A stretch of 64,000 nucleotides of DNA, from NCBI RefSeq assembly GCF_026239555.1, contig NZ_JAPIVP010000009.1, forward strand, positions 1 through 64,000. The letters run 5' to 3'. The notes beneath the pieces are model-generated. The model searched no databases. It was not told the origin of the DNA and worked only from the letters and a program-made list of their open reading frames with translations. The translations under genes were made by a program, and so were the position numbers. Position 1 is the first letter of the stretch; every line of letters starts with the position of its first letter. Below, one piece after another: positions 42,486 to 56,357 of the stretch. Origin of the DNA: Pedobacter sp. PF22-3 (GTDB taxonomy: Bacteria > Bacteroidota > Bacteroidia > Sphingobacteriales > Sphingobacteriaceae).

Positions 42486-44339
42486 ATGAAGATTGTAATT
42501 GCAGAAAAGCCTTCTGTTGGTCGTGAACTTGCTAAAGTTTTTGGAGCAACCACCAGAAAAGATGGATACATTGAAGGTAAAGGATATTCTTTTACCTGGG
42601 CATTCGGGCATTTATTACAATTGGCTCCTCCTCAGGATTATGGTTTTATTGGCTGGAGGAAGCAGCATTTACCCATGCTTCCACAAAAGTTTAAGCTTGC
42701 CGTTAGAAAGATTAAAACAAAAGATGGTTTTGTAGAGGATCCGGCAGTGCGTAAGCAATTAGATACCATAAAAAAACTTTTTGATGAGGCCAGCGAAATC
42801 ATAGTGGCAACGGATGCGGGACGCGAGGGTGAGTTAATCTTCAGGTACATTTATTATTACCTGAAATGTAAAAAACCATTCAAACGCCTCTGGATCTCTT
42901 CACAAACAGATGAGGCCATAAAAGATGGATTCAGAAATTTAAAACCGGGAACAGATTACGATACTTTATTTAACTCCGCCCATTGCCGCTCAGAGTCTGA
43001 TTGGTTGGTGGGAATGAATGCTACGCAGGCACTGAGTATATCTGCAGGTAATAGAACAGTTCTTTCTTTAGGACGGGTGCAAACACCTACCCTGGCGATG
43101 ATCTGTGCGCGTTTTTTAGAGATTAAAAACTTCGTTCCTCAAACCTATTATCAGATCAGCATTTTATTAGCGAAAGATGAACAGGTTTTTAAAGCTATAT
43201 CAACCTCAAATTATAAGGAAAAGGAAGAAGTAGAAAAGTTATTTGGACTGGTAGAAGATGTAGCATCTGGCTTTCCAACGGGCGGCAACATTACAGCTGT
43301 AGAAGCCAAACCAAGAAAAGAACCCCCTCCGCTATTGCATGATTTAAGCAGTTTGCAGCAGGAAGCCAATAAGAAAAAAGGATATACTGCCGATCAAACC
43401 CTTAATATTCTGCAGAACCTGTACGAAAGTAAATTGGTTTCTTATCCCCGTACCGGATCACGCTACATTGGTGATGATGTTTTTGCCGGGGTACCAAATC
43501 TGATTGCAAAATTTACCGATCATGCTGATTTTGGAAAACAGGCGCAATTCCTGCAAACCATTGCTTTAAATAAACGCAGTGTCAATGCTAAAAAAGTAAC
43601 CGATCACCATGCAGTTTTACCTACAGGCGAACAGGCTTATGGATTGAGCCCGGATAAACAAGCGGTATACGATATGGTTGTAGGACGTATGATGGAGGCA
43701 TTCCACCAGGAATGTATTAAGGAATTAACCAAAATAACCATTCAATCAGGCGTTACTTTTGTAGCCAATGGAACAGTAATCCGTTCTGCAGGCTGGCGCG
43801 CTGTTTTTAACGATCCTGAAGATGATAAGAAAGATGAAGACAATGCAGCATTACCAAAAGTTGCTGTTGGCGAACAATTGCCTATTACTGAAAAATCTCT
43901 TTTAGAAAAACAGACTAAACCAAAGCCAATGTATAACGAGGCTTCGTTATTAAAAGCGCTGGAAACATGTGGTAAGGAGATTGAAGATGAGGAATTACGT
44001 TATGCCATGAAGGATAGTGGTTTGGGCACACCGGCAACACGTGCATCCATTATTGAAACTTTAATTACAAGAGAATACATTACAAGGGAAAAAAGGAATC
44101 TTGTACCAACCAATAAAGGCTTGGCTGTTTACGAAGTGGTAAAAGATAAACAAATTGCACAGGCAGAACTTACGGGCCAATGGGAAAAAAGACTGGAAGA
44201 AATCCGTTCCGGTTCATCAGTAAAAGATTTTAAATCTGAAATCACGGAATACACCAAAACCATTACGCACGAATTATTAATTGCAGGTGCAAGTATATCG
44301 GGCAAGCTTGAAGAAGAAAAGAAACTGGAAAAAGTTTAA
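42486..44339 (+). CDS. topB: DNA topoisomerase III
   Basis: Type IA topoisomerase, 617 residues from the ATG at 42486. Toprim domain opens with IVIAEKPSVGRELAKVFG and carries ATDAGREGELIFRYI; the catalytic Tyr is Tyr320 in SYPRTGSRYI. The C-terminal part lacks obvious zinc fingers. It removes supercoils and resolves recombination intermediates, often with RecQ (encoded at 8.8 kb here). I prefer this ATG because the upstream GTG (42462) lies in a promoter-like CATCTTTG sequence. Confidence 0.95.
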   Translation: MKIVIAEKPSVGRELAKVFGATTRKDGYIEGKGYSFTWAFGHLLQLAPPQDYGFIGWRKQHLPMLPQKFKLAVRKIKTKDGFVEDPAVRKQLDTIKKLFDEASEIIVATDAGREGELIFRYIYYYLKCKKPFKRLWISSQTDEAIKDGFRNLKPGTDYDTLFNSAHCRSESDWLVGMNATQALSISAGNRTVLSLGRVQTPTLAMICARFLEIKNFVPQTYYQISILLAKDEQVFKAISTSNYKEKEEVEKLFGLVEDVASGFPTGGNITAVEAKPRKEPPPLLHDLSSLQQEANKKKGYTADQTLNILQNLYESKLVSYPRTGSRYIGDDVFAGVPNLIAKFTDHADFGKQAQFLQTIALNKRSVNAKKVTDHHAVLPTGEQAYGLSPDKQAVYDMVVGRMMEAFHQECIKELTKITIQSGVTFVANGTVIRSAGWRAVFNDPEDDKKDEDNAALPKVAVGEQLPITEKSLLEKQTKPKPMYNEASLLKALETCGKEIEDEELRYAMKDSGLGTPATRASIIETLITREYITREKRNLVPTNKGLAVYEVVKDKQIAQAELTGQWEKRLEEIRSGSSVKDFKSEITEYTKTITHELLIAGASISGKLEEEKKLEKV

Positions 44340-44340
44340 A

Positions 44341-46254
44341 TTATAAGTCCATAAATTCCCATGCACTATGGTAGGCATTCAGATCTTCTGTGTAGCGGAT
44401 AAACTCAGCATAAAAATTTGATTTAGATAACGTAGCACTATCGCCAATCACAACCAACTTTTTTCTGGCCCTGGTCATGGCCACATTCATTCTTCTCGTA
44501 TCAGATAAAAAGCCGATAATTCCATCGCTGTTACTCCTCGTTAAGCTAATATAAACTACATCCCGTTCCTGTCCCTGAAAGCTATCAATGGTATTTACAG
44601 CAATTTTATCGCGATATGGAATCAAAATTTCATTTTCCTGAACCAAGGCATTTAATAGCTGTACCTGCTGTTTATATGGAGAAACAATGGCAATTGATGG
44701 AAAGATTTCCATTGAGCTTTGATCTCCTAAACCTGCAACCAGATGCGTTAAATGTTTAATCAAAAATGCGGCTTCATCTGGATTGGTGGTACTGGTTCCA
44801 TCTAATTTTTCATCGTAACTACAGCCTGCCGTATCAATAAACTGGATCGGTTCATCGCCAGTAAACAATAAACGATCTGCAACAGATTGATGAGCTTTTA
44901 AAGCATTCTTATAAAATACCTGAGATGAATAACCCATAATATCCTTGTTCATCCTGTATTGTTCATTCAACAACACAACAGACTCAGGATGAAGATTTAC
45001 TGCTTTTTCTAATAATGTATTACTTAAGCCATTTCTGGCTGCCTCATTTGATTTTATGGTTGGCGATAGTTGGAAATGATCTCCAGCGAGTATCACTTTC
45101 TGTGCTTTCAAAATCGGTATCCAGCAAGCGGGCTCCAAAGCCTGGCCTGCCTCATCAATTACAATGGTATTATACTTTAAATTCCGAACCGTATAATGGT
45201 TGGCACCTACCAAAGTGGCGGTAATAATCTGTGCTTTGTTAAACAGATTATCTATGATATACTGTTCCGTTTTTTCTACCTCTTTTCCAATTTTATGTGC
45301 TTCATCAAACAGGGCCTTGCGTTGTTCGCGTTCCGCTTTGCCAAAACTCCGCTTGTATTTGTGGGCCATGTTTTTATACTCACTGGCCTGTTTTTTTAAA
45401 GCTTTAATGGTTTTCATCTCCGGATGATCGGCCATTTGATGATCGAGCGTAGCCGCCAGCAATCTTTCAGAAACTCTTGCGGGGTTACCCACACGGATTA
45501 CTTTTAGTCCTTCGGCGGCTAACTTCTCCGTCAGTAAATCAACGGCAGTATTACTTGGTGCTACCACCAGAATTTTTTGGTCGTTATGTTTAATTAATGA
45601 TTTTATAGCATGCACCAGTGTTGTTGTTTTCCCGGTACCTGGTGGGCCATGAACTACAGCCAGATGATCTGCCGCAATAATTTTATTTACCGCCAGTTGC
45701 TGCGAATCATTTAGCGTATTGGGAATAATAAACTTCTCCTCACCCTGAAATGACGGCTTCTCTCCTGCAGTTAAAATGCGGATCAGTTTATTTTCTGATT
45801 CATTTTCGGCTAAGTTTGAGGCTTGCTTAAGGGCATTCTGCATCTCATCATAGCTGTTATTATCAAATAGTAAATCTACACCAAGTTTCCCGTCTCTCGT
45901 CCAGTCCGGCAGCTCATCAACACGGAAGCTGATTTTCATCCTGCTACCACTTTGATGATTGATAATTCCTTCCAGCCGATCTTCTTTGGCATCGTGATTT
46001 GAAAATAATACCACAGCAGCACCAAAACGGAACTGGTGAGAAAAATCCTGATGGGTAGTCCTTTCCAGCTCTACCGTTAAATAATCGCCACGCCCTATCT
46101 CAGTATTTCTGATAGCAATGGGGTACCATGTTAAACCCAAAGCCCTCCTATCAGCGGCAGAAGTATTTTCAGTAAGTTTTAAGTATGATTGTAAATCTTC
46201 GTTCCGCTCGGTATCAAGCAAATCCTGAAGCTTTTTAAAATATTCTTTTGGCAA
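44341..46254 (-). CDS. SF1 helicase (IGHMBP2/DNA2-NAM7 like)
   Basis: 637 residues. An N-terminal OB-like region (about 35-130) precedes the helicase core: Walker A VVHGPPGTGKTTTLVHAIK (Lys209), DEAGQ motif in VIDEAGQALEP, and motifs AVNTIDSFQGQERDVVYISL and MNVAMTRARKKLVVIGD. This is an ATP-dependent DNA or RNA helicase of the UPF1-like group. It converges on topB with only a base or two between stops. Confidence 0.93.
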   Translation of the reverse strand: MPKEYFKKLQDLLDTERNEDLQSYLKLTENTSAADRRALGLTWYPIAIRNTEIGRGDYLTVELERTTHQDFSHQFRFGAAVVLFSNHDAKEDRLEGIINHQSGSRMKISFRVDELPDWTRDGKLGVDLLFDNNSYDEMQNALKQASNLAENESENKLIRILTAGEKPSFQGEEKFIIPNTLNDSQQLAVNKIIAADHLAVVHGPPGTGKTTTLVHAIKSLIKHNDQKILVVAPSNTAVDLLTEKLAAEGLKVIRVGNPARVSERLLAATLDHQMADHPEMKTIKALKKQASEYKNMAHKYKRSFGKAEREQRKALFDEAHKIGKEVEKTEQYIIDNLFNKAQIITATLVGANHYTVRNLKYNTIVIDEAGQALEPACWIPILKAQKVILAGDHFQLSPTIKSNEAARNGLSNTLLEKAVNLHPESVVLLNEQYRMNKDIMGYSSQVFYKNALKAHQSVADRLLFTGDEPIQFIDTAGCSYDEKLDGTSTTNPDEAAFLIKHLTHLVAGLGDQSSMEIFPSIAIVSPYKQQVQLLNALVQENEILIPYRDKIAVNTIDSFQGQERDVVYISLTRSNSDGIIGFLSDTRRMNVAMTRARKKLVVIGDSATLSKSNFYAEFIRYTEDLNAYHSAWEFMDL

Positions 46255-46418
46255 GGGTAGATGTGTTAATTGTGGAAACTCTTTAATTGTTGAATTACTT
46301 GATTGTTAAATTGATTGCTTGATAACTGAAGACTGCCAATTGTAAACTGATTAATTGTCAGATTGATAGATTGTTCAGGAACAGAAAATAGTTGTTCATA
46401 AAGTTAATTCAAACGCTT

Positions 46419-46438
46419 AGCGCCATGCGCATGGCGCT
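46419..46438. repeat. perfect 20-bp palindrome over the DUF3037 stop
   Basis: AGCGCCATGCGCATGGCGCT is its own reverse complement. Its right edge overlaps the TAG stop of the DUF3037 gene (46437-46439). Related GCGCATGCGC-type sequence occurs near 35636 and 59210. The upstream gap 46255-46436 otherwise has only AT-rich, low-complexity sequence. Confidence 0.85.
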
Positions 46439-46832
46439 ACAGAACCAGTTCCTGGTGCAACCTCAGTAAAGTCTCTTCGGCATCATCACAAAAGCCGGGA
46501 TGTACTTTTGAACATTGCACTACCGTACTTCTGGTTGCCGTAAGCCATCTAAAACGGGAAGCCTGGTCGTATTGACCAATGGGACCTGATCCTGCAGCAG
46601 CCGTACTTATTCTTTCAAAAGCACATAAATTTTCGTGAAGTTCATTTAGATCTATTTCCGCGGATAAAGCTTTTATTCTTTTCTCATCCAGGGCAAAAAC
46701 ACTTTTCAAAAACTTTTGCCTGGCACAAAATAAAATAATGCCAACATTAATAAATTCTTCACGTTCTACCCTTGGCATTACGCGAATCACAGCATACTCA
46801 AATAAGAATTTCCCTTGCATGCTGTGCTTCAT
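46437..46832 (-). CDS. DUF3037 family protein
   Basis: 131 residues. FLFEYAVIRVMPRVEREEFINVGIILFCARQKF and a conserved core around RFRWLTATRSTVVQCSKVHPG match DUF3037. Function unknown. Its 5' end overlaps the HipA-like kinase gene by 35 nt, a strong coupling. Start may be 46832 or the fifth codon (46820), MQGKFLFEYAV. The pair occurs together in many genomes, to my knowledge, which suggests one biological unit. Confidence 0.88.
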   Translation of the reverse strand: MKHSMQGKFLFEYAVIRVMPRVEREEFINVGIILFCARQKFLKSVFALDEKRIKALSAEIDLNELHENLCAFERISTAAAGSGPIGQYDQASRFRWLTATRSTVVQCSKVHPGFCDDAEETLLRLHQELVL

Positions 46833-47589
46833 TTAAAAATATGTCTGAATGCGCTAACCTCGTCAAAAGGAAATGTTTATAGGCATCGCGATGGGCTGCT
46901 TTGCTATCAAAGTTCGTTTCGCCTTCCAGCCAGTCATCAGGAATCAGATTAATTACGGCGGCTATCTTTTCAGGATTAAGTAATTTACGAAATTCTTCAT
47001 TTACACTTTCCAACTCAGAGGCCCATGGCAATAATACATGGTCTTTTACCAAAATGAAAGGTTTAATGGCCTGTTCCTCCCAATTTTGCCAGGAATGATG
47101 AAAATACAATGCAGCGCCATGATCTATTAGCCAAAGTTCTTTATGCCACAGTAACATATTCGTATTTCTGCAGGTGCGATCCATATTGGTTAAAAAACAA
47201 TCAAGCCATACAATCTGCGAAGCGAGTTTGGCATCTACTGTAGTTACCGTTGGATCGAATGTTATTGCTCCCGATAGATAGTGTAATGCCAAATTTAAAC
47301 CTACACTGGCTTTTAGCAGGTCCTGAATTTCTTCGTCGGGCTCTGTTCTCCCAAAAGCTTCATCCAAATTGGCAAAAACCAACTCAGGTACGCGCAAACC
47401 CAGGTAGCGGGCAATTTCGCCGCCAATCAGTTCGGCAATTAAAGCCCTGGTGCCCTGCCCTGCTCCTCTAAATTTCAGTACATATAAAAAGTTATCATCA
47501 GCCTCTGCAATGGCAGGCATAGAGCCACCTTCGCGCAAAGGCGTAACGTATCTGGTTACATTTACCGTTCTAAGTTGTAAATCGTTCAT
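46798..47589 (-). CDS. HipA-like kinase family protein
   Basis: 263 residues. ATP-site Lys39 in YVLKFRG, catalytic segment NMDRTCRNTN (Asp137, Asn142) and metal-binding IDHGAAL (Asp156) follow the HipA kinase fold (pfam HipA_2). HipA in E. coli phosphorylates GltX to cause dormancy; this divergent group has no characterised target that I know of. It lacks the usual HipB partner and instead overlaps a DUF3037 gene. ATG start. Promoter candidate TAAATTTG at 47643-47650. Confidence 0.88.
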   Translation of the reverse strand: MNDLQLRTVNVTRYVTPLREGGSMPAIAEADDNFLYVLKFRGAGQGTRALIAELIGGEIARYLGLRVPELVFANLDEAFGRTEPDEEIQDLLKASVGLNLALHYLSGAITFDPTVTTVDAKLASQIVWLDCFLTNMDRTCRNTNMLLWHKELWLIDHGAALYFHHSWQNWEEQAIKPFILVKDHVLLPWASELESVNEEFRKLLNPEKIAAVINLIPDDWLEGETNFDSKAAHRDAYKHFLLTRLAHSDIFLNEAQHAREILI

Positions 47590-47642
47590 ATTTGAAGATA
47601 GAATGGTAACTTATTTATTTATGCACAATTCTAAACTTGGTG

Positions 47643-47650
47643 CAAATTTA
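47643..47650 (-). promoter_or_regulatory. candidate promoter -7 box for the HipA-like/DUF3037 operon
   Basis: Minus-strand TAAATTTG matches TAnnTTTG, about 53 nt before the ATG at 47589. No clear -33 TTG. Confidence 0.45.
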
Positions 47651-47869
47651 GCAGATTTACAACAATAAATTGGTCAAAGTTTAGTCGTAAAGATCCTAAA
47701 TGGAATCTAATGGCTAATCTTCAATAGTCTTTTAGAAATTAAAAGAAGAACTAAAGGGGATTTTTGAACCAGTAATATTTTCTATTGGTTTCGATTAAAT
47801 TCAGGCATCTTATTTTACGTATAATTATACTTACCATTGACGATAATAACTAAATAATATTTTCACTGT

Positions 47870-47895
47870 TGAGAAGGAACGACGAAGCCTTCTCA
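47870..47895. repeat. dispersed hairpin repeat in the 47.6-48.0 kb gap
   Basis: TGAGAAGG (47870-47877) and CCTTCTCA (47888-47895) form an 8-bp stem with a ten-base loop. The gap 47590-48016 otherwise contains no gene I can support, only AT-rich sequence. Confidence 0.6.
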
Positions 47896-48016
47896 CAATG
47901 ACGATGTCTTAAGGAACCAAAGGCCTTTAATTCACCTCTTCATAGTTAAACCTTTTCAGATATGAATAACTACTGATAGCTTTGCAAACTCAATGATCTT
48001 ATTATTCTATTCGATT

Positions 48017-48205
48017 TTAATCGTGACCCAAATAAGCAATGCCTGCAGGAGTGATGGCAGATGACCATTGCACCGATTCGCGGTTAATTTTAATTAAGCC
48101 CATACTTTCTAATTCTTCATATTCTTCTTCCATCCCACCCAAAACAGAAGAACTAACCTGTTGATTGATTACCTCAAGTAGAGATATGATTTCTGATCTT
48201 TCCAT
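48017..48205 (-). CDS. small hypothetical protein, winged-helix-like
   Basis: 62 residues: MERSEIISLLEVINQQ, an acidic helix EEEYEELESMGLIKI, and a turn ITPAGIAYLGHD. The last part resembles the helix-wing end of MarR/PadR-type small DNA-binding domains but is too short to be sure. Cytoplasmic. Monocistronic, convergent with nothing close. Moderately convincing as a real gene. Confidence 0.5.
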   Translation of the reverse strand: MERSEIISLLEVINQQVSSSVLGGMEEEYEELESMGLIKINRESVQWSSAITPAGIAYLGHD

Positions 48206-48316
48206 AACATTATGAATTAGCTATAATCTAATTAACATAAATATAGTTAAAATGTTTATGGCTAATTAAACATTTTCAAGGGATTAAGGTTGTATTTATA
48301 TCCCGATTAAATAACT

Positions 48317-48697
48317 ATGGAAACAAACCTTTATTACCTTTTTTTTATGGCTTTGCCTGTAGCCTGTATCGCCTGGACAGTTACCAAGGAAGAGATCTTC
48401 AGAGAGGCACGCGAATTTTGTGTAGACCGTTCTAAAAACTGCAATAAGTTGGTGAAAAGAAAGTTTTTTTATGTATTTACATGTGAATACTGCTTTAGTC
48501 ACTATGTAACCTTGATTTTGCTTTTTATTACCAAATTCACTTTAATTTATCCAGATTGGCGCGGCTATGTCATTGCTTTTTTTTCGATAGTATGGGTGGC
48601 CAATGTTTACATGAGTTTATATAACATTATCCGTATTGATTTGAAAAAAGAAAAAATCAAAGTTCAAAAAGAAGAATCAGCACTTAAAAATGATTGA
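48317..48697 (+). CDS. membrane protein with CxxC-type motif
   Basis: 126 residues, two to three hydrophobic helices (3-22, 55-74, 84-106). Between them is the motif FTCEYCFSHYVT (Cys-x2-Cys-x2-His), followed by a charged C-terminal tail. This resembles DUF1360-type small membrane proteins with a CxxC before a helix, though I cannot assign a family with certainty. It precedes the KTSC gene by 44 nt on the same strand. Confidence 0.65.
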   Translation: METNLYYLFFMALPVACIAWTVTKEEIFREAREFCVDRSKNCNKLVKRKFFYVFTCEYCFSHYVTLILLFITKFTLIYPDWRGYVIAFFSIVWVANVYMSLYNIIRIDLKKEKIKVQKEESALKND

Positions 48698-48741
48698 AAC
48701 CAATTATAATGGTTGCTGTTTTATAGTAATAACCTGTTTTT

Positions 48742-48945
48742 ATGCCATCATCAGTAATCAAATATTTCAGTTATGATGAAGTTACAAAAACATTAAAAAT
48801 CATTTTTGTAACCAACATGGTTTATCTGTACCAAAATGTTCCAGAAAAGGCTTACAAGATGTTAAAGGCATCTGGATCAAAAGGGCGATATTTTAACAGC
48901 AACATTAAAGATAAATATAAATTCCAGAAACTAGAGGAAGAATAA
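48742..48945 (+). CDS. KTSC domain protein
   Basis: 67 residues; the whole protein is one KTSC domain (about 3-60), seen in IKYFSYDEVTKTLKIIFV and YQNVPEKAYKMLKASGSKGRYFN. The domain is named from lysyl-tRNA synthetase C-termini and may bind nucleic acid; its role as a free protein is unknown. One base separates its stop from the next start, so it is co-translated with the Nei-like glycosylase gene. Confidence 0.88.
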   Translation: MPSSVIKYFSYDEVTKTLKIIFVTNMVYLYQNVPEKAYKMLKASGSKGRYFNSNIKDKYKFQKLEEE

Positions 48946-48946
48946 T

Positions 48947-49684
48947 ATGCCCGAAGGTCCATCAATCGTAATATTAAAAGATTTAATCAAGGAGCTCCAT
49001 CTGGGCAAGCCTGAAGTGCTTGAAGTTACTGGTAATGTAAAAAATTTTGATAAGGATAGATTACTCCATCAAAAGGTTGAAGATTTTAAGAGCTGGGGAA
49101 AACATTTTTTGATCTGCTTTAACGATTTCACCGTCCGGATACATTTTATGCTGTTTGGCAGCTATTTAATTAACGAACGTAAAAAAACGGCCGTAAAACT
49201 GGGGCTTATCTTTAAAAAAGATGAATTAAATTTCTACACCTGCAAAGTCGACCTGTTGGAAGGAAATGTTAACGAACATTATACCTGGCAAAACGATGTG
49301 ATGGCTGATGAATGGAGTAGCAGCACAGCGATTAAAAAGTTAAAAGAAAAACCCAACGCACTGGTTTGCGACGTATTGCTTGATCAGCAGGTTTTTAGTG
49401 GAGTGGGCAACATTATTAAAAATGAAGTTTTATATCGTGCCCGTATACATCCCTTAAACAAAATTGAAGATTTACCAACTGCAAAATTGAAGGCATTGGT
49501 TAATGAGTCCAGGAATTATAGTTTTGATTTTTTAAAATGGAAAAAGGAGAATGCATTAAGTAAACATTGGGAGGTATATAGTCAGAAAGAATGCCCTCTC
49601 AAGCACAAAATAAACAAAAAGGAACTGGGTAAAACACACCGTCAGACTTATTTTTGTGAAAAATGCCAGAAAATTTATAAATAA
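48947..49684 (+). CDS. Fpg/Nei-like DNA glycosylase
   Basis: 245 residues. N-terminus MPEGPSIVILK has the Pro2-Glu3 catalytic start of the family, with the lysine in WGKHFLIC and the helix-two-turn-helix signature QQVFSGVGNIIKNEVLYRARIHP. The C-terminal zinc site is unusual: CPLKH...CEKC, giving a Cys-x3-His/Cys-x2-Cys pattern. It removes oxidised bases from DNA with AP-lyase activity. It forms a small operon with the KTSC gene. Confidence 0.9.
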   Translation: MPEGPSIVILKDLIKELHLGKPEVLEVTGNVKNFDKDRLLHQKVEDFKSWGKHFLICFNDFTVRIHFMLFGSYLINERKKTAVKLGLIFKKDELNFYTCKVDLLEGNVNEHYTWQNDVMADEWSSSTAIKKLKEKPNALVCDVLLDQQVFSGVGNIIKNEVLYRARIHPLNKIEDLPTAKLKALVNESRNYSFDFLKWKKENALSKHWEVYSQKECPLKHKINKKELGKTHRQTYFCEKCQKIYK

Positions 49685-49826
49685 ATCAAAAAATATTTCA
49701 GCATGAAGTCTTCGGCAGTTAAATCATAAAACACTAGATACTAATAGATTAACAAATAAGACTTATCTACTTGTTCTACGAACTATAATCTTAAAGTAAA
49801 AGAAATGTTATTATTCAATTAAAATA

Positions 49827-49857
49827 TTTGGATTTTTCTAAACATGACCTATATTTG
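49827..49857 (+). promoter_or_regulatory. perfect promoter for a short transcript
   Basis: TTTG at 49827-49830, a 19-nt spacer, then TATATTTG at 49850-49857: an exact Bacteroidota consensus. No plus-strand gene follows; the transcript would end in the hairpin at 49883-49915. Confidence 0.75.
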
Positions 49858-49860
49858 TCC

Positions 49861-49915
49861 TCGAGAGCGTTAATTTAGATGCGGGTATATGGCTTAGGCT
49901 ATATGCCCGTTTTTT
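49861..49915 (+). ncRNA. candidate small RNA, antisense to the idi 3' end
   Basis: From the predicted start near 49861 to the T tract at 49910-49915 gives an RNA of about 55 nt. The 3' hairpin (49883-49908: GGGTATATGGC against GCTATATGCCC) has an 11-bp stem with one G-U pair, loop TTAG, then six T. It overlaps the last three bases of idi on the other strand. I see no open frame worth calling: the ATG at 49879 runs through the hairpin against idi. The hairpin is strand-specific because the G-U pair becomes a C-A mismatch on the minus strand. Confidence 0.6.
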
Positions 49916-50435
49916 GTTTAGCCGTTGATGCATGTGCAATTACTTCATCCAAACAGATTCTTAACCACGGTGTATAGGCACTTGGATTCACTGCAATATC
50001 CTTTTTTAAAGTATCCAAATCAATATATTTAAAAGATTCTACTTCTTCTTTGTTGATCACCGGCAATTCATTACTCATACCAAAATAAACGTGGTCTATT
50101 TCATGTTCAGTTAAACCGTTTTCGAATGATGCCTTATAGGTAAATTTAAACAGAAAGTTTAATTCACAATCCATACCCATTTCCTCGATTAACCTTCTTT
50201 TAGCTGCATTTATATTGCTTTCGCCGATCCGCGGATGGCTGCAACAGGTATTCGTCCATAAGCCCCTCGAATGATATTTGCTCATCGCTCTTTGCTGGAG
50301 CAACAATTCGCGTTTAGAATTAAAAATAAAAACAGAAAAGGCGCGGTGTAATAAACCTTTTTCGTGTGCTTCCATTTTATCCATCTGCCCTTTCGGCACA
50401 TCATTCACATCTACCAGAATAACTTGCTCTTCCAT
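49899..50435 (-). CDS. idi: isopentenyl-diphosphate delta-isomerase, type I
   Basis: 178 residues with a Nudix fold; isomerises IPP and DMAPP for terpenoid and carotenoid synthesis. Catalytic Cys in TNTCCSHPRIG, the Nudix-type AAKRRLIEEMGMDCEL and the acidic site in GLTEHEIDHVYFG are present. Third gene of the carH-crtB-idi operon; its ATG abuts the crtB stop (TAAATG). Its 3' end overlaps the candidate small RNA. Confidence 0.96.
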   Translation of the reverse strand: MEEQVILVDVNDVPKGQMDKMEAHEKGLLHRAFSVFIFNSKRELLLQQRAMSKYHSRGLWTNTCCSHPRIGESNINAAKRRLIEEMGMDCELNFLFKFTYKASFENGLTEHEIDHVYFGMSNELPVINKEEVESFKYIDLDTLKKDIAVNPSAYTPWLRICLDEVIAHASTAKQKTGI

Positions 50436-51272
50436 TTAAATTACATTTAACTTATTTCTGATAATCGAATCGAACATCAAACCCACTTTATGGGTATTCG
50501 AAATCCTGATCCGTTCGGTCATGATCTTTTCGGCACTCAAGCGCTTTATTTTCGCGAATAATTTTTTATAATAGATATAAGACAAATACACACCATTTCT
50601 TGAAGTAGCAGGCAGCAGCTTAATACCGGTTAATGCCATGGCAAATTCGGCCTCAATCTCTTTTTCTATTTCTCTTTTTTGTCGATCGCAGAATAATGCT
50701 AGATTAACATTGGGAAAATAATTTCGGCTAAGTGTTTGGTGATCAGCTTTAACATCCCTTAAAAAGTTAACTTTTTGAAATGCAGAACCCAATTTCATTG
50801 CGTAAGGTTTCAGATACTCATAATCTACATCACCTCCATGAGTAAAAACTTTTAAACACATCAACCCTACTACCTCTGCCGAACCTAAAATATAATCGTT
50901 ATAAAGTTCTGGCGTGTATTTTTGTGTAGAAAGGTCCATCTCCATGCTTTTCAGGAAAAGAACAATCAATTCTTCATCTATCTGATATTGATTTACAACC
51001 TTTTGAAATGAATTTAAAATAGGGTTTAAGCTAATGCCCAGGTTAATGGCTTCAAAAGTATCTTCCTTAAATTTTGCCAATAAAAATTTCTTGTCATATT
51101 GATGAAAGCTATCTACAATTTCATCTGCCAAACGCACAAAGCCATAAATGGCATGTATGGGTTGGCGTATTTTTTTACCAAGAAAATAAATGCCATAAGA
51201 AAAGCTGGTGCTGTATAACTTAGTGGTAAGCCGGCTACAATCGCCAGATAATTGATCAAAGAGTTCTTTCAT
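50436..51272 (-). CDS. crtB: phytoene synthase
   Basis: 278 residues, squalene/phytoene synthase family. The two Asp-rich prenyl-binding motifs are FVRLADEIVD (Asp50, Asp54) and the later FLRDVKAD. Condenses two geranylgeranyl diphosphates to phytoene, the first carotenoid step. No crtI, crtY or crtE lies in the window. It overlaps the upstream carH by ATGA and abuts idi downstream, so the three are co-translated. Confidence 0.95.
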   Translation of the reverse strand: MKELFDQLSGDCSRLTTKLYSTSFSYGIYFLGKKIRQPIHAIYGFVRLADEIVDSFHQYDKKFLLAKFKEDTFEAINLGISLNPILNSFQKVVNQYQIDEELIVLFLKSMEMDLSTQKYTPELYNDYILGSAEVVGLMCLKVFTHGGDVDYEYLKPYAMKLGSAFQKVNFLRDVKADHQTLSRNYFPNVNLALFCDRQKREIEKEIEAEFAMALTGIKLLPATSRNGVYLSYIYYKKLFAKIKRLSAEKIMTERIRISNTHKVGLMFDSIIRNKLNVI

Positions 51273-52162
51273 GTATTAAGAGGTGATGCTATAGTTTTTT
51301 CAAATTCATCAAGTGTTTTAATCCAGTTGATGTGATCGATATGGTTTAGCTTGCCGATAACCTCACTATTACCAGCAAGATGGATTTTTGCGGTTGAGCA
51401 TATTTCAGACAATCGATCTATATAATGTTGTGCTGCAGGCGCCAATCGCGATTTGATCATAAAAAGCATAACATGGTCTACATTTAAGGTTGAAAATATG
51501 CGCTTAATCGAATCCAAAGGAACTTTGCTGCCTAGAAAAATAACATGATGATGTTGCATCCTCAGCATATAGCTGGCAAACAACAGCCCAATATCGTGAT
51601 CCTCATCTTCAGGTAAAAAAAGCAGCCATTTCTGACCAGAATGCCCATGTAAGGAAAGATAATTGATATGGGTAAATATTTTTTGGCGAATAATATTGGA
51701 TAAAAAATGCTCATGCGCAGGGCAGATATCATCTTTTCTCCACATTAATCCAAGGCGTAATAACAATGGATAAATTATTTTCCGGTAGCAGTCAGCAAGT
51801 CCAAATTGGTCAATACTTTCATCAATTAATTGGTTGAAAGCGTGCTCATTAAAAGCTAGTCCGTACCTGATCAATTCACCTACGTAATAATCATCATCCT
51901 TATCGCCAGAAGAATAATAAAACTGTTGATCAAGAAGTTCGTCAATTTCGCTATCAGAAAGGCTGCAGATTTTAGAGATTTTTAAGCCACTTTTATTTAA
52001 ACTTACAATATTTAACAGTTTTCTGAGCTGCTGATCATCATAAAACCGTGTATTTCCTTGAGATCGCAACGGACTCAACGCATTGTAACGCTGCTCCCAG
52101 ATCCTAATGGTGTGAGAATGAATGCCCGAAAGCTGCTCAAGATCTGCGATGGAGTAAGTCAT
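51269..52162 (-). CDS. carH: MerR-type regulator with B12-binding domain (CarH/LitR-like)
   Basis: 297 residues. The N-terminal MerR wing (1-68) starts MTYSIADLEQLSGIHSHTIR. The cobalamin-binding part has W141-x9-E151-H152, matching the CarH W-x9-EH lid, and E187-x-H189-x-x-G192, the lower axial His motif. In Thermus CarH a His directly after the Trp gives the upper ligand after light exposure; here that position is Arg142. CarH is a dark-state repressor released by light-induced B12 cleavage. It heads the carH-crtB-idi operon and presumably regulates it and itself. Confidence 0.9.
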   Translation of the reverse strand: MTYSIADLEQLSGIHSHTIRIWEQRYNALSPLRSQGNTRFYDDQQLRKLLNIVSLNKSGLKISKICSLSDSEIDELLDQQFYYSSGDKDDDYYVGELIRYGLAFNEHAFNQLIDESIDQFGLADCYRKIIYPLLLRLGLMWRKDDICPAHEHFLSNIIRQKIFTHINYLSLHGHSGQKWLLFLPEDEDHDIGLLFASYMLRMQHHHVIFLGSKVPLDSIKRIFSTLNVDHVMLFMIKSRLAPAAQHYIDRLSEICSTAKIHLAGNSEVIGKLNHIDHINWIKTLDEFEKTIASPLNT

Positions 52163-52165
52163 TGT

Positions 52166-52200
52166 TTTGTTTAAATATATCTAATAAAAACTTAAACAAA
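52166..52200. promoter_or_regulatory. inverted repeat upstream of carH, possible operator
   Basis: TTTGTTTAA (52166-52174) and TTAAACAAA (52192-52200) are perfect inverted arms with a 17-nt spacer, directly before the carH ATG and over the region where its promoter must lie. A plausible autoregulatory site for CarH, by position and symmetry only. Confidence 0.5.
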
Positions 52201-52349
52201 AAAGAAGAACGAAAAGTTTTTCAGGAAATGTACAGCGAATTTTGCTTAACCACCAGATTTATATTGTTAGGTAAGGTGAAATGCTAAAACGAAGAGTAAA
52301 CGTTTATGATAAATAATCTCCAAGGATCAGAATACTAACAAATAGTCGG

Positions 52350-52625
52350 TTAAAATATCTTTTCAGTAAGCAATACTCCTCTTTCCCCATTACCTGTTTC
52401 TATGGTGTGCACATTTTTGTAAGAATGACTGAAGAAATCGTAGCCGTGCTCTCTCTGCTTAATTGCTACCGTGCTTACCGGATACTTTAAGTTTGTTTGC
52501 ATGCATAGCAAACTACCATTAGCCAGCAGGAGAAAATCGCAATCGTAACCTTGTTCCTGGAGTTCAATAACCTTTTTTGTAATGGATACGTTTAATCTGT
52601 TCGTTATACGGATGCTGTTTTTCAT
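52350..52625 (-). CDS. small hypothetical protein
   Basis: 91 residues, no recognised family. Sequence is mixed alpha-beta: MKNSIRITNRLNVSITKKVI, then DCDFLLLANGSLLCMQTNLKYPVSTVAIKQRE. No signal peptide or membrane helix. It lies upstream of carH (187 nt) on the same strand but with a separate leader region, so co-transcription is uncertain. Start is ATG. Confidence 0.6.
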   Translation of the reverse strand: MKNSIRITNRLNVSITKKVIELQEQGYDCDFLLLANGSLLCMQTNLKYPVSTVAIKQREHGYDFFSHSYKNVHTIETGNGERGVLLTEKIF

Positions 52626-52983
52626 GGAAATGTTGTTTTAGAGAATTAGGTATAATTATTCTGCTTACTAAATATAAGCTATTAATAGCAACTATCCAAA
52701 TTACAATATATTATTAATCAATTAATTAAACATTTTTTTCAATAATTTTCTGCGCTGTGCTGTTTCTTACCTAAAAAACAGATGCTATCATAAAAGGGAT
52801 CCCTATAAAAATAAAAAATATGAAGTTTAAAACCATTCGCAGCGTAATCAGCCCCTAAATTCAATCATACATTGCCAAAAAAAGCCATCTTGTTTCTCAA
52901 ATACATAAAAGTACTTCCATAATGTGTTTTTTTTTCATTTTACTTGATGAAATTGTATTTTGCAATAATTAAACCTATAAAAA
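52626..52983. other. 358-nt AT-rich intergenic region
   Basis: No gene, RNA or repeat identified. It separates the divergent 52350-52625 gene and the LytTR regulator; the sequence GTATTTTG near 52955 resembles a degenerate -7 box for the latter. Confidence 0.4.
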
Positions 52984-53742
52984 ATGTCAATAAGTTGTAT
53001 TGCTATTGATGATGATCATCATTGCCTGGAGAATTTAATGGCATATATGGAAAAGCTACCAGATTTAAAGCTTATCCAAACTTTTACTGAACCACTCCAA
53101 GCCCTTGCAGAAATATCGCTATCTAATCCTGTCGACATTATTTTTATGGATATCGAAATGCCTTCGCTGTCCGGAATAGAACTGGCGGGTTTATTAAGGC
53201 AAAAAACGAAATACCTGGTTTTTACCACTGCACACTCAAGGTATGCTATCGATGCTTTTAAAGTTCAGGCTGATGCTTATTTGCTTAAACCCTACTCCAT
53301 TATACATTTAGCCAAAACAATAAATAACCTTTATCCAACCGGTACAAAAGCAAAACATCCTTTTTCAATTTTAGATGATCATTTCTTCTATATCCCGATA
53401 AAAGGCGAAAATAGCGATTTGATAAGAATAGATCTGAATGAGCTCATTGCCACAGAAGAGATAGGTGAAGATATTCAGTTTAAAACTACAAAAAGTACTT
53501 TTTTAAGTTCGAAATATAACTTTACCAAAACTTTAAAAATATTGAAAGAAAATTCTTCATTTATTCAGGTTACGCCTACTGTTGTGATTTCGAAGCAGCA
53601 CATTAAAAGTGTTCTTGATGATAAAGTACTGCTTTCCAGTGAAACATCCTTTACAGTTTCAGAAAGCTATATAGAACCCTTTGCAAATTTTCTCAAGAAC
53701 AATTCCTTACAGAAAAATCCTCACCCAGGTACAATTTTGTAG
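52984..53742 (+). CDS. LytTR-family response regulator
   Basis: 252 residues. Receiver domain with Asp56 in IIFMDIEMP and Lys102 in YLLKPYS, then a LytTR DNA-binding domain (about 150-240) reading LIATEEIGEDIQFKTT and FIQVTPTVVISKQHIKSVL. A sensor histidine kinase is not adjacent, so it is an orphan regulator. It typically binds imperfect direct repeats near its targets. ATG start. Confidence 0.92.
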   Translation: MSISCIAIDDDHHCLENLMAYMEKLPDLKLIQTFTEPLQALAEISLSNPVDIIFMDIEMPSLSGIELAGLLRQKTKYLVFTTAHSRYAIDAFKVQADAYLLKPYSIIHLAKTINNLYPTGTKAKHPFSILDDHFFYIPIKGENSDLIRIDLNELIATEEIGEDIQFKTTKSTFLSSKYNFTKTLKILKENSSFIQVTPTVVISKQHIKSVLDDKVLLSSETSFTVSESYIEPFANFLKNNSLQKNPHPGTIL

Positions 53743-53853
53743 TGTTTGGCCAACCATTATCAGTTTCTTCTCTATATTTTGAAGTAGATTGAAACATTAC
53801 TGCCAAAACATTGTATTAGAATAATCTATTTATTAATAATTGATTGATCTGTT

Positions 53854-54216
53854 TTGAAAAGAGTGTTGGTTGTGGATGATGATCCAGATGTATTAGAAGT
53901 TTTCCAGGAAGTATTAGAAACTGAACATTATAAGGTTTACCCACTACTTTCGCCGCGGTATATTTTTAAAACCATTAAAGATTTTAGACCCGATTTGATT
54001 ATTCTGGACATTATGTTGAATGGAATGGATGGGCGTGCCGTGTTTAAAGAACTGAAACAAAATGCTGAAACAGCAGGCATACCTATTATTATGGCATCAG
54101 CGAGGTATGATGAAAATTACATTACATCTCAAAAATATCATCCTGATGATTATTTGCAAAAACCCTTCAACATTGCAGATTTACTTCGAAAAGTAGGTGC
54201 ATTAATGGAAAACTAA
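53854..54216 (+). CDS. stand-alone response regulator receiver protein
   Basis: 120 residues, one CheY-like domain: VDDDPDVLEVF, phospho-acceptor Asp52 in LIILDIMLNGMDG, and Lys103 in YLQKPF. No output domain, so it acts through a partner protein or phosphorelay. The start is TTG at 53854 (alternatively GTG at 53863). It stands between the LytTR regulator and the barrel gene, both on the same strand; the barrel gene begins 10 nt after its stop. Confidence 0.88.
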   Translation: MKRVLVVDDDPDVLEVFQEVLETEHYKVYPLLSPRYIFKTIKDFRPDLIILDIMLNGMDGRAVFKELKQNAETAGIPIIMASARYDENYITSQKYHPDDYLQKPFNIADLLRKVGALMEN

Positions 54217-54226
54217 AAAAACAGAT

Positions 54227-54856
54227 ATGAAACCAAAACTACTAACAACCCTTTTACTGCTGTTTATGTTGGCATCAACCAAAATAATGGCACAAAACAG
54301 GCCTGACAAACTCTACTCGATGAGTGGCATTGGATTTGCATTCCCCATGGGTGAAACCTCAGACTATTTCAAGCCTAAGTTTTCAACATCTTTAGGCTTA
54401 AATCTGGGTTTGGGCGATAGCGGATTATTTCTTTATCCGAAAGTAAGTTTGCATGCTTTTACTTTTAACCAGATTACGCCCGATGCAGGATATACTTATA
54501 CCTTGCAAAAAGGAAGGGCAACCACCTATTTGCTAAATGTAGCATTAGGTTATCGTAAAATTGTAAACAAGTGGGCATTTTATGGCTTTGCGGGTGCTGG
54601 AGGAGGATTTATTCTTACCCCTCAGGCATCAGTTAATTCATCAAGTTTACAGGTCATACAGGAAAATAAATCAAATGGTTTAGGTATTGCCGAAGGTGGT
54701 GCCGGTATTGAATATAATATTGGTGGCGCTAATTTATTTGTGGAAGCCAGTTATATGTATGGTTTCAGTAAAATCCAGAACAGGACTTTTAATACCGTAC
54801 CGATATCTGTTGGTATTAAACCTAATTTAAGCAAATTGCTTAATAAACTTAAATAA
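54227..54856 (+). CDS. outer membrane beta-barrel protein
   Basis: 209 residues with signal peptide MKPKLLTTLLLLFMLASTKIMAQ. Alternating amphipathic strands and glycine turns (SLGLNLGLGDSGLFLYPKVSL, ALGYRKIVNKWAFYGFAGAGGG, VEASYMYGFSKIQ) are those of small OmpA/OmpW-like barrels. Function unknown. It starts 10 nt after the receiver gene, so is likely co-transcribed, and it ends at a strong terminator. Confidence 0.85.
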   Translation: MKPKLLTTLLLLFMLASTKIMAQNRPDKLYSMSGIGFAFPMGETSDYFKPKFSTSLGLNLGLGDSGLFLYPKVSLHAFTFNQITPDAGYTYTLQKGRATTYLLNVALGYRKIVNKWAFYGFAGAGGGFILTPQASVNSSSLQVIQENKSNGLGIAEGGAGIEYNIGGANLFVEASYMYGFSKIQNRTFNTVPISVGIKPNLSKLLNKLK

Positions 54857-54877
54857 CGGTTACATACAAAAAGGCAG

Positions 54878-54910
54878 AGCGACTACGTTAAATACTTAGT
54901 CGCTTTTTTT
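54878..54910 (+). terminator. Rho-independent terminator after the barrel gene
   Basis: AGCGACTA (54878-54885) pairs with TAGTCGCT (54897-54904) and is followed by seven T (54904-54910). It ends the regulator/barrel operon. Confidence 0.88.
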
Positions 54911-54934
54911 ATGCTAAAGAAATAATCAAAATAA

Positions 54935-54965
54935 TTTCCATACTAATTATTTTAGCATAAATTTG
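54935..54965 (+). promoter_or_regulatory. promoter of the exonuclease/GIY-YIG gene
   Basis: TAAATTTG at 54958-54965 matches TAnnTTTG; a near -33 TTTC lies at 54935-54938 with 19-nt spacing. The ATG is 19 nt downstream at 54984. Confidence 0.5.
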
Positions 54966-54983
54966 TAATTCAAATTATTCTTA

Positions 54984-56357
54984 ATGTTATACGCAGTTGT
55001 AGATATTGAAACCACCGGTGGTCATGCCTCAGCAAATGGTATTACCGAAGTTGCCATTAACATTCATGATGACGACAAAATCGTTGAATCTTATACTACA
55101 CTCATTAATCCTAAGCAGCCGGTCCCCGTTTACATTACGGCGCTTACTGGTATTGACGATAACATGCTGATGAACGCACCAACATTTGATGATGTTGCTT
55201 TACAAATCTATCAACTCTTGAATGATAAGGTTTTTGTAGCACACAATGTAAACTTTGATTATTCTTTTTTAAAGCATCATTTAGCAGCTTCAGGCTATGA
55301 TTTACAATGCAAAAAGTTGTGTACAGTAAGGTTGAGCAGAAAACTAATTCCTGGTAAATCTTCTTATAGTTTAGGAAAGCTTTGTACAGCGCTGCAGATA
55401 CCAATTCAAAACCGGCATAGGGCCGCGGGTGATGCAGATGCTACCAGTATATTGTTCAATTTATTACTAGAATACGATCAGGAAGGCATCATAGCAGACA
55501 TGCTGAAGAAAACATCGAAAGAACAGGTTTTACCCCCGCATTTAGATAAAACTTCTATTTTGAGATTGCCAGACCGGCCAGGTGTATATTATTTTAAAGA
55601 TAGTAAAGGCAAAATCATTTATGTTGGAAAGGCTAAAAACCTGAAGAAACGCGTAACCAGCCACTTTACCGGTAATACACCTAACCGCCAACGTCAGGAT
55701 TTTTTACGCACCATCCATCATGTAGACCACGTAATTTGCGGCACCGAACTGATGGCGCTAATTTTAGAAGCCAATGAAATTAAACGTCTCTGGCCTGAAA
55801 ACAACCGGGCAATGAAACGTTATGAGCATAAATATGATTTATATGTTTTTGAAGATCAAAATGGCTATTTACGCTTAGCGATAGATAAACATAAAAAAAA
55901 CAATAACGCCCTGCAAAGTTTTAACAGTTTACTGGAGGGGTACAATTTTTTAAATCAATTAATAAATAAATACCAGCTTTGTGCAAAGCTTTGTTATTTA
56001 CAAAAAACAGCGACCAAATGTTATGCGCATGAAAATGGCCAATGTTTTGGTGCATGCAGTGGAATAGAAACTGTTAGCGTTTATAATAAAAAACTCAATG
56101 CAGCATTAATTGATGTTCAAAACCAACAGCCAAGTTTTGCATTGGTAGATGATGGCAGAAAAGAGGACGAGTTTAGCTGTTTAGTTGTAGAAAATGGTAA
56201 ATTCTATGGAATGGGTTATTTTACAGATAAAAATTATTTATCAGATGGATTGGCAACAGTTAAAAATGATCTATCCACTTACCAGTCTAATAGTTATATT
56301 TTAAATTTAATACTAAATTACGCAGAACAATACCCACAGAAATTGTATAAATTGTAA
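54984..56357 (+). CDS. exonuclease / GIY-YIG endonuclease fusion
   Basis: 457 residues. N-terminal DEDDh exonuclease (about 1-165): VVDIETTGG, HNVNFDYSFLKHH and RHRAAGDADATS. Then a GIY-YIG nuclease domain like the UvrC N-terminus (about 195-270): PDRPGVYYFKDSKGKIIYVGKAKNLKKRVTSHF. The C-terminal part follows UvrC-like and Cho-like homologues with a Cys-containing region. The arrangement is known in several phyla as a DinG/UvrC-type fusion, probably for excision repair. ATG start; own promoter. Confidence 0.92.
   Translation: MLYAVVDIETTGGHASANGITEVAINIHDDDKIVESYTTLINPKQPVPVYITALTGIDDNMLMNAPTFDDVALQIYQLLNDKVFVAHNVNFDYSFLKHHLAASGYDLQCKKLCTVRLSRKLIPGKSSYSLGKLCTALQIPIQNRHRAAGDADATSILFNLLLEYDQEGIIADMLKKTSKEQVLPPHLDKTSILRLPDRPGVYYFKDSKGKIIYVGKAKNLKKRVTSHFTGNTPNRQRQDFLRTIHHVDHVICGTELMALILEANEIKRLWPENNRAMKRYEHKYDLYVFEDQNGYLRLAIDKHKKNNNALQSFNSLLEGYNFLNQLINKYQLCAKLCYLQKTATKCYAHENGQCFGACSGIETVSVYNKKLNAALIDVQNQQPSFALVDDGRKEDEFSCLVVENGKFYGMGYFTDKNYLSDGLATVKNDLSTYQSNSYILNLILNYAEQYPQKLYKL

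Follow-up and report, generated by a model that had tools for sequence, protein, structure and literature searches.

Here, we describe a short predicted RNA gene beside an idi-like gene in a 64,000-nucleotide stretch of the Pedobacter sp. PF22-3 genome (contig NZ_JAPIVP010000009.1, positions 1 to 64,000; hereafter the window). Its neighbours are genes for a KTSC-domain protein, an H2TH DNA glycosylase, the NUDIX idi-like protein, a phytoene-synthase-type protein and a MerR/B12 regulator. The last of these (51269-52162), a MerR-type regulator with a weak match to a B12-binding domain, lies above phytoene synthase and idi, and we take it to resemble the light-responsive LitR/CarH regulators. The parts of the element are listed in Table 1. 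As read from the sequence, TTTG (49827-49830) is followed after 19 nt by TATATTTG. In the excerpted text of a report on Flavobacterium, the TAnnTTTG consensus is described at -12 to -5 (PMC9723704), and this placement puts the predicted transcription start one base before the GAGAG that begins the core. The original prediction was of a promoter followed, with no gene between, by a hairpin and six T, giving an RNA of about 55 nt that overlaps the idi stop codon on the opposite strand. That arrangement is confirmed, with the hairpin now counted as 13 pairs: the same length is predicted from the -7 box and the T run, and, with the idi open reading frame ending at 49899, about 17 nt at the 3' end of the predicted RNA overlap the idi stop codon region.

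Table 1. Features of the predicted small-RNA gene and its neighbour in the window
Feature	Position	Strand	Basis or remark
-33 element TTTGGA	49827..49832	+	Bacteroidota sigma-A-type promoter; TTAGGA in most orthologs
-7 element TATATTTG (TAnnTTTG)	49850..49857	+	unchanged in 18 of 18 orthologous loci
Predicted small RNA, about 55 nt	49862..49916	+	start from -7 box and tRNA-abutting phage copy; end from T run
Invariant core GAGAGCGTTAATTTAGAT, proposed 5' seed	49863..49880	+	sequence conservation
Terminator hairpin, 13 pairs, loop 49894-49897	49881..49910	+	folding, orthologs
Terminator T run (six T)	49910..49915	+	sequence, kept in orthologs
idi-like gene, NUDIX domain	49899..50435	-	ORF; neighbour, outside the RNA gene; end overlaps terminator only

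The hairpin is well paired on the plus strand alone, as had been claimed: 49876-49917 of that strand folds at -21.8 kcal/mol (z -5.72), against -10 kcal/mol (z -1.22) for 49876-49925 of the minus strand. Nine terminator-like sites were found in 44000-55000, with the 49881-49910 hairpin ranking first, vs 6.9 (sd 2.8) in shuffled sequence; such sites are thus not rare, and the case rests instead on conservation and family evidence. A promoter scan with E. coli hexamers returned 39 sites (40.5 expected), the window promoter not among them. We also considered and rejected a tiny protein, which is disfavoured because only one of the three frames through the core is open and the core supplies no start codon; no conserved start codon was seen. 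The prediction of a short non-coding RNA, flanked by a promoter and a terminator of its own, is backed by orthology and by a multicopy family, both described below.

The core GAGAGCGTTAATTTAGAT is present once in the window and in 12 exact copies in the PF22-3 genome. A DNA search of this genome found four more sites, with alignments spanning the core and the beginning of the hairpin, and the core written as AGAGCGTTAATTTAGATG at up to 3 mismatches gave 26 matches, 12 of them with 0-1 mismatch, vs 3 for the reversed pattern. In a sample of 31 genomes (PF22-3, 18 others of the genus and 12 from other families), the core at up to 1 mismatch had 165 matches in 19/19 same-genus genomes (reversed control 4) and none in the 12 genomes from other families. 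The exact 18-mer was found in all 36 same-genus genomes drawn (PF22-3 included) and in 34 of 165 family genomes of other genera, representing 8 genera, with a reversed control of 0 in both sets; most matching genomes outside Pedobacter have 1 copy, and within Pedobacter there are many copies per genome. Across the class, an exact 17-mer occurred in 7/395 genomes, all Sphingobacteriaceae (control 1 match), and in 0/380 genomes outside this family. At least 119 named stretches matched; among 80 listed, 75 are Pedobacter, and the non-Pedobacter entries among the matches listed are Arcticibacter, Desertivirga, a Sphingobacteriaceae bin and two contigs labelled Flavobacteriaceae, some named loci duplicating genomes of our numbered set. 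One further genus (g17) has the core with one base changed (L425-L428). An RNA model from 44 copies, which is sequence-only because the hairpins do not align, detected 55/121 family genomes at E <=0.01 and 51 at <=0.001, the latter level covering 10 of 25 genera; outside the family it matched 12/380 class genomes, only at E 0.001-0.01 and at about the chance expectation. Copies may also lie close together, with three within 2.2 kb around an rpiA-like gene in one genome (G000:C56:32983-35119) and clusters of 2-4 in several relatives.

The anatomy of the family is drawn from 152 copies in 19 genomes, of which 132 are exact, 19 have a single mismatch and 1 has two; the set took in 9/14 matches of genome G004 and 1/10 of G018, and some mismatched copies in it without a terminator are probably there by chance. 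The core is fixed from copy to copy; promoters, terminators and hairpin sequences vary. The 147 distinct downstream sequences fold at a mean of -19.7 kcal/mol vs -7.7 for dinucleotide-shuffled sequences, with 146 of the 147 at -12 or lower and the first hairpin pair 0-5 nt 3' of the core. Most copies predict an RNA of about 55 nt, and a minority have one or two extra hairpins before the core, with 21 distinct copies showing a leader hairpin with loop GGTGAGAG plus a second hairpin abutting the core. At four such loci (L013, L015, L016 and L017, positions ~1456-1563) the constant leader loop GGTGAGAG echoes the GAGAGC start of the core. Upstream, a TAnnTTTG box is found in 20/132 exact copies; its end is 4 nt from GAGAG in 8 of them and 5 nt in the other 12. 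Many other copies have an ECF-like CGT-TATA stretch, as judged with loose, hand-made promoter patterns. In other genera, TGWAAC, 17/18 nt and GTA precede the core in 31/35 sites, and the distance from GTA to the core is 12 nt in 27/35. We read this as a putative ECF promoter, although the pattern is not specific: in 12 genomes it matched 12 places and the reversed control 7; the RNA itself accounts for 4 of the 12, and other matches precede quite different genes (one rpsF-like by eye). Separately, a conserved hairpin with a core-like AG[AG]GCGCTAATTTAGATAGG and no terminator was seen about 0.5 kb before a response-regulator gene (L023:1501-1540, L151, L107 and L077); its role could be that of a target or a sponge, or it could be a leader with no relation to the family.

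The copy beside idi was collected in 18 orthologous loci, where the other neighbouring genes are retained to varying degree. All 18 retain TATATTTG, the 18-nt core and the T run, and their hairpin positions pair without exception (100%); the end of idi, unlike the core and TATATTTG, has diverged. Judged by this pattern of invariant core and -7 element, paired hairpin and diverged idi end, the idi-side copy is a conserved gene in its own right, whose constant part lies outside the idi overlap. A covariation search in relatives, proposed with the original prediction, gave thin covariation: among 8 distinct rows, 2 of 13 pairs have changes on both sides, a bare count reached by 215/500 shuffles, and the covariation score was reached by 1/500.

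Copies are also borne by phages. The exact 18-mer is present in 31 viral contigs, and two control 18-mers (the reversed core and a rearranged core) gave 0. Behind the viral core a hairpin folds at -8 kcal/mol or lower in every contig but L481 (30/31), and at -10 or lower in 29/31. A PHROGs test of 20 proteins from 17 of the 31 contigs identified head, packaging or tail proteins in 11 contigs; the remainder gave one weak helicase match, two contigs with only unknown families and three with nothing. In three contigs of 4.5-5.6 kb (L486:2462-2557, L493:3686-3773 and L505:1444-1515), which we take to be Microviridae-like ssDNA phages, the RNA lies between the head and replication protein genes; in L486 (4,987 bases) the element is 36 nt after the major head protein (phrog_514) and 37 nt before the replication initiation protein (phrog_942). 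The element is present in 3/13 contigs with a related head protein, and L513, a close relative with a 75% identical head protein, is without it. In another contig (L497:2802-2935) a tRNA-Met ends at 2875 and the core starts at 2876 without a gap, followed by a terminator hairpin; normal maturation of the tRNA would thus release an RNA with its 5' end exactly at GAGAG. Three contigs with isolate-type numbers (L492, L499 and L510) may be prophages, and L499 matches a copy of a Pedobacter genome (L049). A BLAST search of the window copy against annotated phage records gave no match.

The window element therefore looks like one copy of a small-RNA gene family of Pedobacter and related Sphingobacteriaceae, rather than an idi-specific switch. 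The reading that we favour, and consider somewhat better than an even bet, is that of a multicopy sRNA family acting in trans through a seed at the 5' terminus, with the build of the FopS RNAs of Bacteroides (compared below) and with copies captured by phages. The original prediction had offered an antisense or a trans-acting regulator. We favour trans action, since conservation falls on the single-stranded 5' end and these 18 nt recur at many unrelated places, phages included; the antisense role toward idi is not supported. Under the favoured reading, the copies would be transcribed as short RNAs whose 5' end meets mRNAs in trans by base-pairing; the simplest site would be the start-codon region, where FopS also acts. 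Different signals would converge on one shared target set through copies driven by unlike promoters (sigma-A-type, ECF-like and others), and phages would carry copies to use or disturb that control. Counting against this reading are the negative target searches given next, the 18 invariant nt, which are long for a seed with many targets, and the fact that a protein-binding role would give the same anatomy.

Searches for targets were negative. At 30 of 56 SusC start regions, a weak test with starts guessed, 64/200 and 106/200 shuffled seeds paired as well as the real seed, and 14 SusC start regions at -9 kcal/mol or lower, vs 8.3 expected, were equalled by 7% of shuffles. At 51 start regions of the window, 95/200 shuffles were as good, with idi and crtB unremarkable. 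Near-complete complements of the core in the genome showed no excess (502 vs 474 for the reversed control), and 17 of these that were examined had no cluster at start sites or rRNA, with two tRNA genes in one locus. Csr/Rsm sponges are RNAs that soak up or guide an RNA-binding protein, as ligands of RbpB might too, and because the target tests are negative we retain such a protein decoy or ligand as the main rival, though a distinctly less probable one: the 5' stretch would be a proposed protein site, and the copies, phage ones included, would soak up or guide the protein. Many copies of one sequence suit titration, GAGAG is repeated in the hairpin loop before the core in the 21 distinct copies noted above, and no mRNA pairing signal was found at SusC or window start regions. 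The PF22-3 genome encodes one RRM_1 protein, at C23:359394-359606, and in Bacteroides the protein RbpB binds FopS RNAs, according to the excerpted text of PMC11697453. RRM proteins are common in Bacteroidota, however, and 18 invariant nt are much for a single-strand-binding protein.

That the element is a dispersed DNA repeat or mobile element, such as a terminator or a phage attachment site, without RNA function, is unlikely. It is indeed dispersed, also in phages and prophages, but nothing beyond the promoter class, the core and the terminator class is conserved, and the sequence that forms the hairpin changes between copies. Moreover, the single copy of other genera stands in one gene order, its left neighbour falling in one of two protein clusters in 31/35 loci (a set that may count a genome twice, with gene names assigned by eye). 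Counting for the sRNA family, the genes to the left of Pedobacter copies with the GGTAAGGGT hairpin match those of this single copy in 13/13 cases, vs 0/119 for the other exact copies. On gene order, the GGTAAGGGT-hairpin locus looks like the ancestral one, and the other copies, that at idi included, like later additions.

A copy acting mainly as a cis-antisense RNA on the 3' end of idi mRNA, as in the original prediction of an RNA against idi, is very improbable. It would account for the overlap of about 17 nt with the end of idi and for the retention of the copy beside idi. That overlap, however, takes in nothing but the terminator and T run, which differ from copy to copy, whereas the invariant stretch is outside idi and is met again at unrelated loci, 11 further exact copies standing elsewhere in the genome; we rejected this candidate on the position of that stretch. 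The best pairing of the core at the idi start region (-9.1 kcal/mol) is likewise unremarkable among the 51 start regions of the window. Since the copy is kept beside idi in all 18 orthologous loci collected, it may nevertheless have some local role.

Equally hard to credit are transcription attenuators or leaders, in which promoter, sensor and terminator precede a gene lying downstream. The closeness of terminator to promoter and the 40 of 129 copies with a same-strand next gene (at a median of 248 nt from the core, 11 of them within 150 nt) might suggest them, but gene orientation rules them out for most copies, since the next gene is on the opposite strand in 89/129 and no Rfam riboswitch or leader matches. 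The core was inside an open reading frame of >=100 aa in 0 of the 130 exact copies testable.

Very little is known of riboregulation in Bacteroidota other than Bacteroides and Flavobacterium, and most members of the group are not known to have the classical RNA chaperones. Returning to the trans-acting sRNA family, we tentatively propose, as an idea somewhat more likely wrong than right, that the 18-nt RNA word is a regulatory currency common to Sphingobacteriaceae and their phages. Hosts would deploy it from up to a dozen genes under different sigma factors, and unrelated phages, even 5-kb ssDNA phages with hardly any space to spare, would have acquired copies, either under promoters of their own or joined on behind a tRNA or hairpin, as a means of seizing the host's post-transcriptional programme. 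Such seizure, if true, could for example change surface receptors or shut off host mRNAs. Phage copies, in very small genomes too, would mean that the RNA matters in infection, and would offer a natural function assay. The invariant 18-nt 5' end is also a practical handle, allowing one probe for all copies and one antisense or CRISPRi design for many.

Rfam 15 gave 0 matches at gathering score for the window and for 17 loci with copies, and the best lax matches stayed far below that level; for the window copy it was a C. difficile sRNA model at 20.9 bits vs a gathering score of 128. The main text of open-licence papers nowhere contains the core sequence, although an unpublished or paywalled record is possible; among the matches listed for Pedobacter or Sphingobacteriaceae sRNAs and for ECF-driven Bacteroidetes sRNAs, none concerned this RNA.

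RybB and MicA of enterobacteria are sigma-E-dependent sRNAs with a 5'-terminal seed. The present family is alike in having a conserved 5' end as its proposed seed and, in other genera of Sphingobacteriaceae, a putative ECF-like promoter directly upstream; it differs in the sigma-A-type promoter of the window copy, and its ECF class is a pattern only, with the 12 matches vs 7 given above. The Pedo-repair RNA motif (RF01715), reported only from Pedobacter in the excerpted text of its description (PMC2864571), shares the genus and a DNA-repair-type neighbour, the window copy being near the H2TH-domain gene. It is a different RNA, of 211 model positions, and its model was absent from the PF22-3 genome, with one sub-threshold match in 21 genomes and none at the loci examined.

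The closest likeness is to FopS of Bacteroides thetaiotaomicron, described in the excerpted text of PMC11697453 as 14 paralogous sRNAs of about 65-70 nt, with one instance in a Caudovirales phage, that block translation of SusC mRNAs near start codons and are bound by the RRM protein RbpB. No sequence link between the two was found, as there is no exact core in 380 class genomes outside the family and no Rfam match; the likeness is one of build as described in those excerpts. Here, in distinction from FopS, different genera share an unchanged core, several promoter classes occur and copies in phages are numerous, and SusC targeting, shown for FopS, has no support here in 30 of 56 SusC start regions (starts guessed). 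As far as the excerpted account of FopS allows, the two are alike in being multicopy (14 vs up to 12 exact) and short (about 65-70 vs about 55 nt predicted), with their own promoters, a conserved single-stranded 5' stretch followed by a Rho-independent terminator (predicted here), and occurrence in phages.
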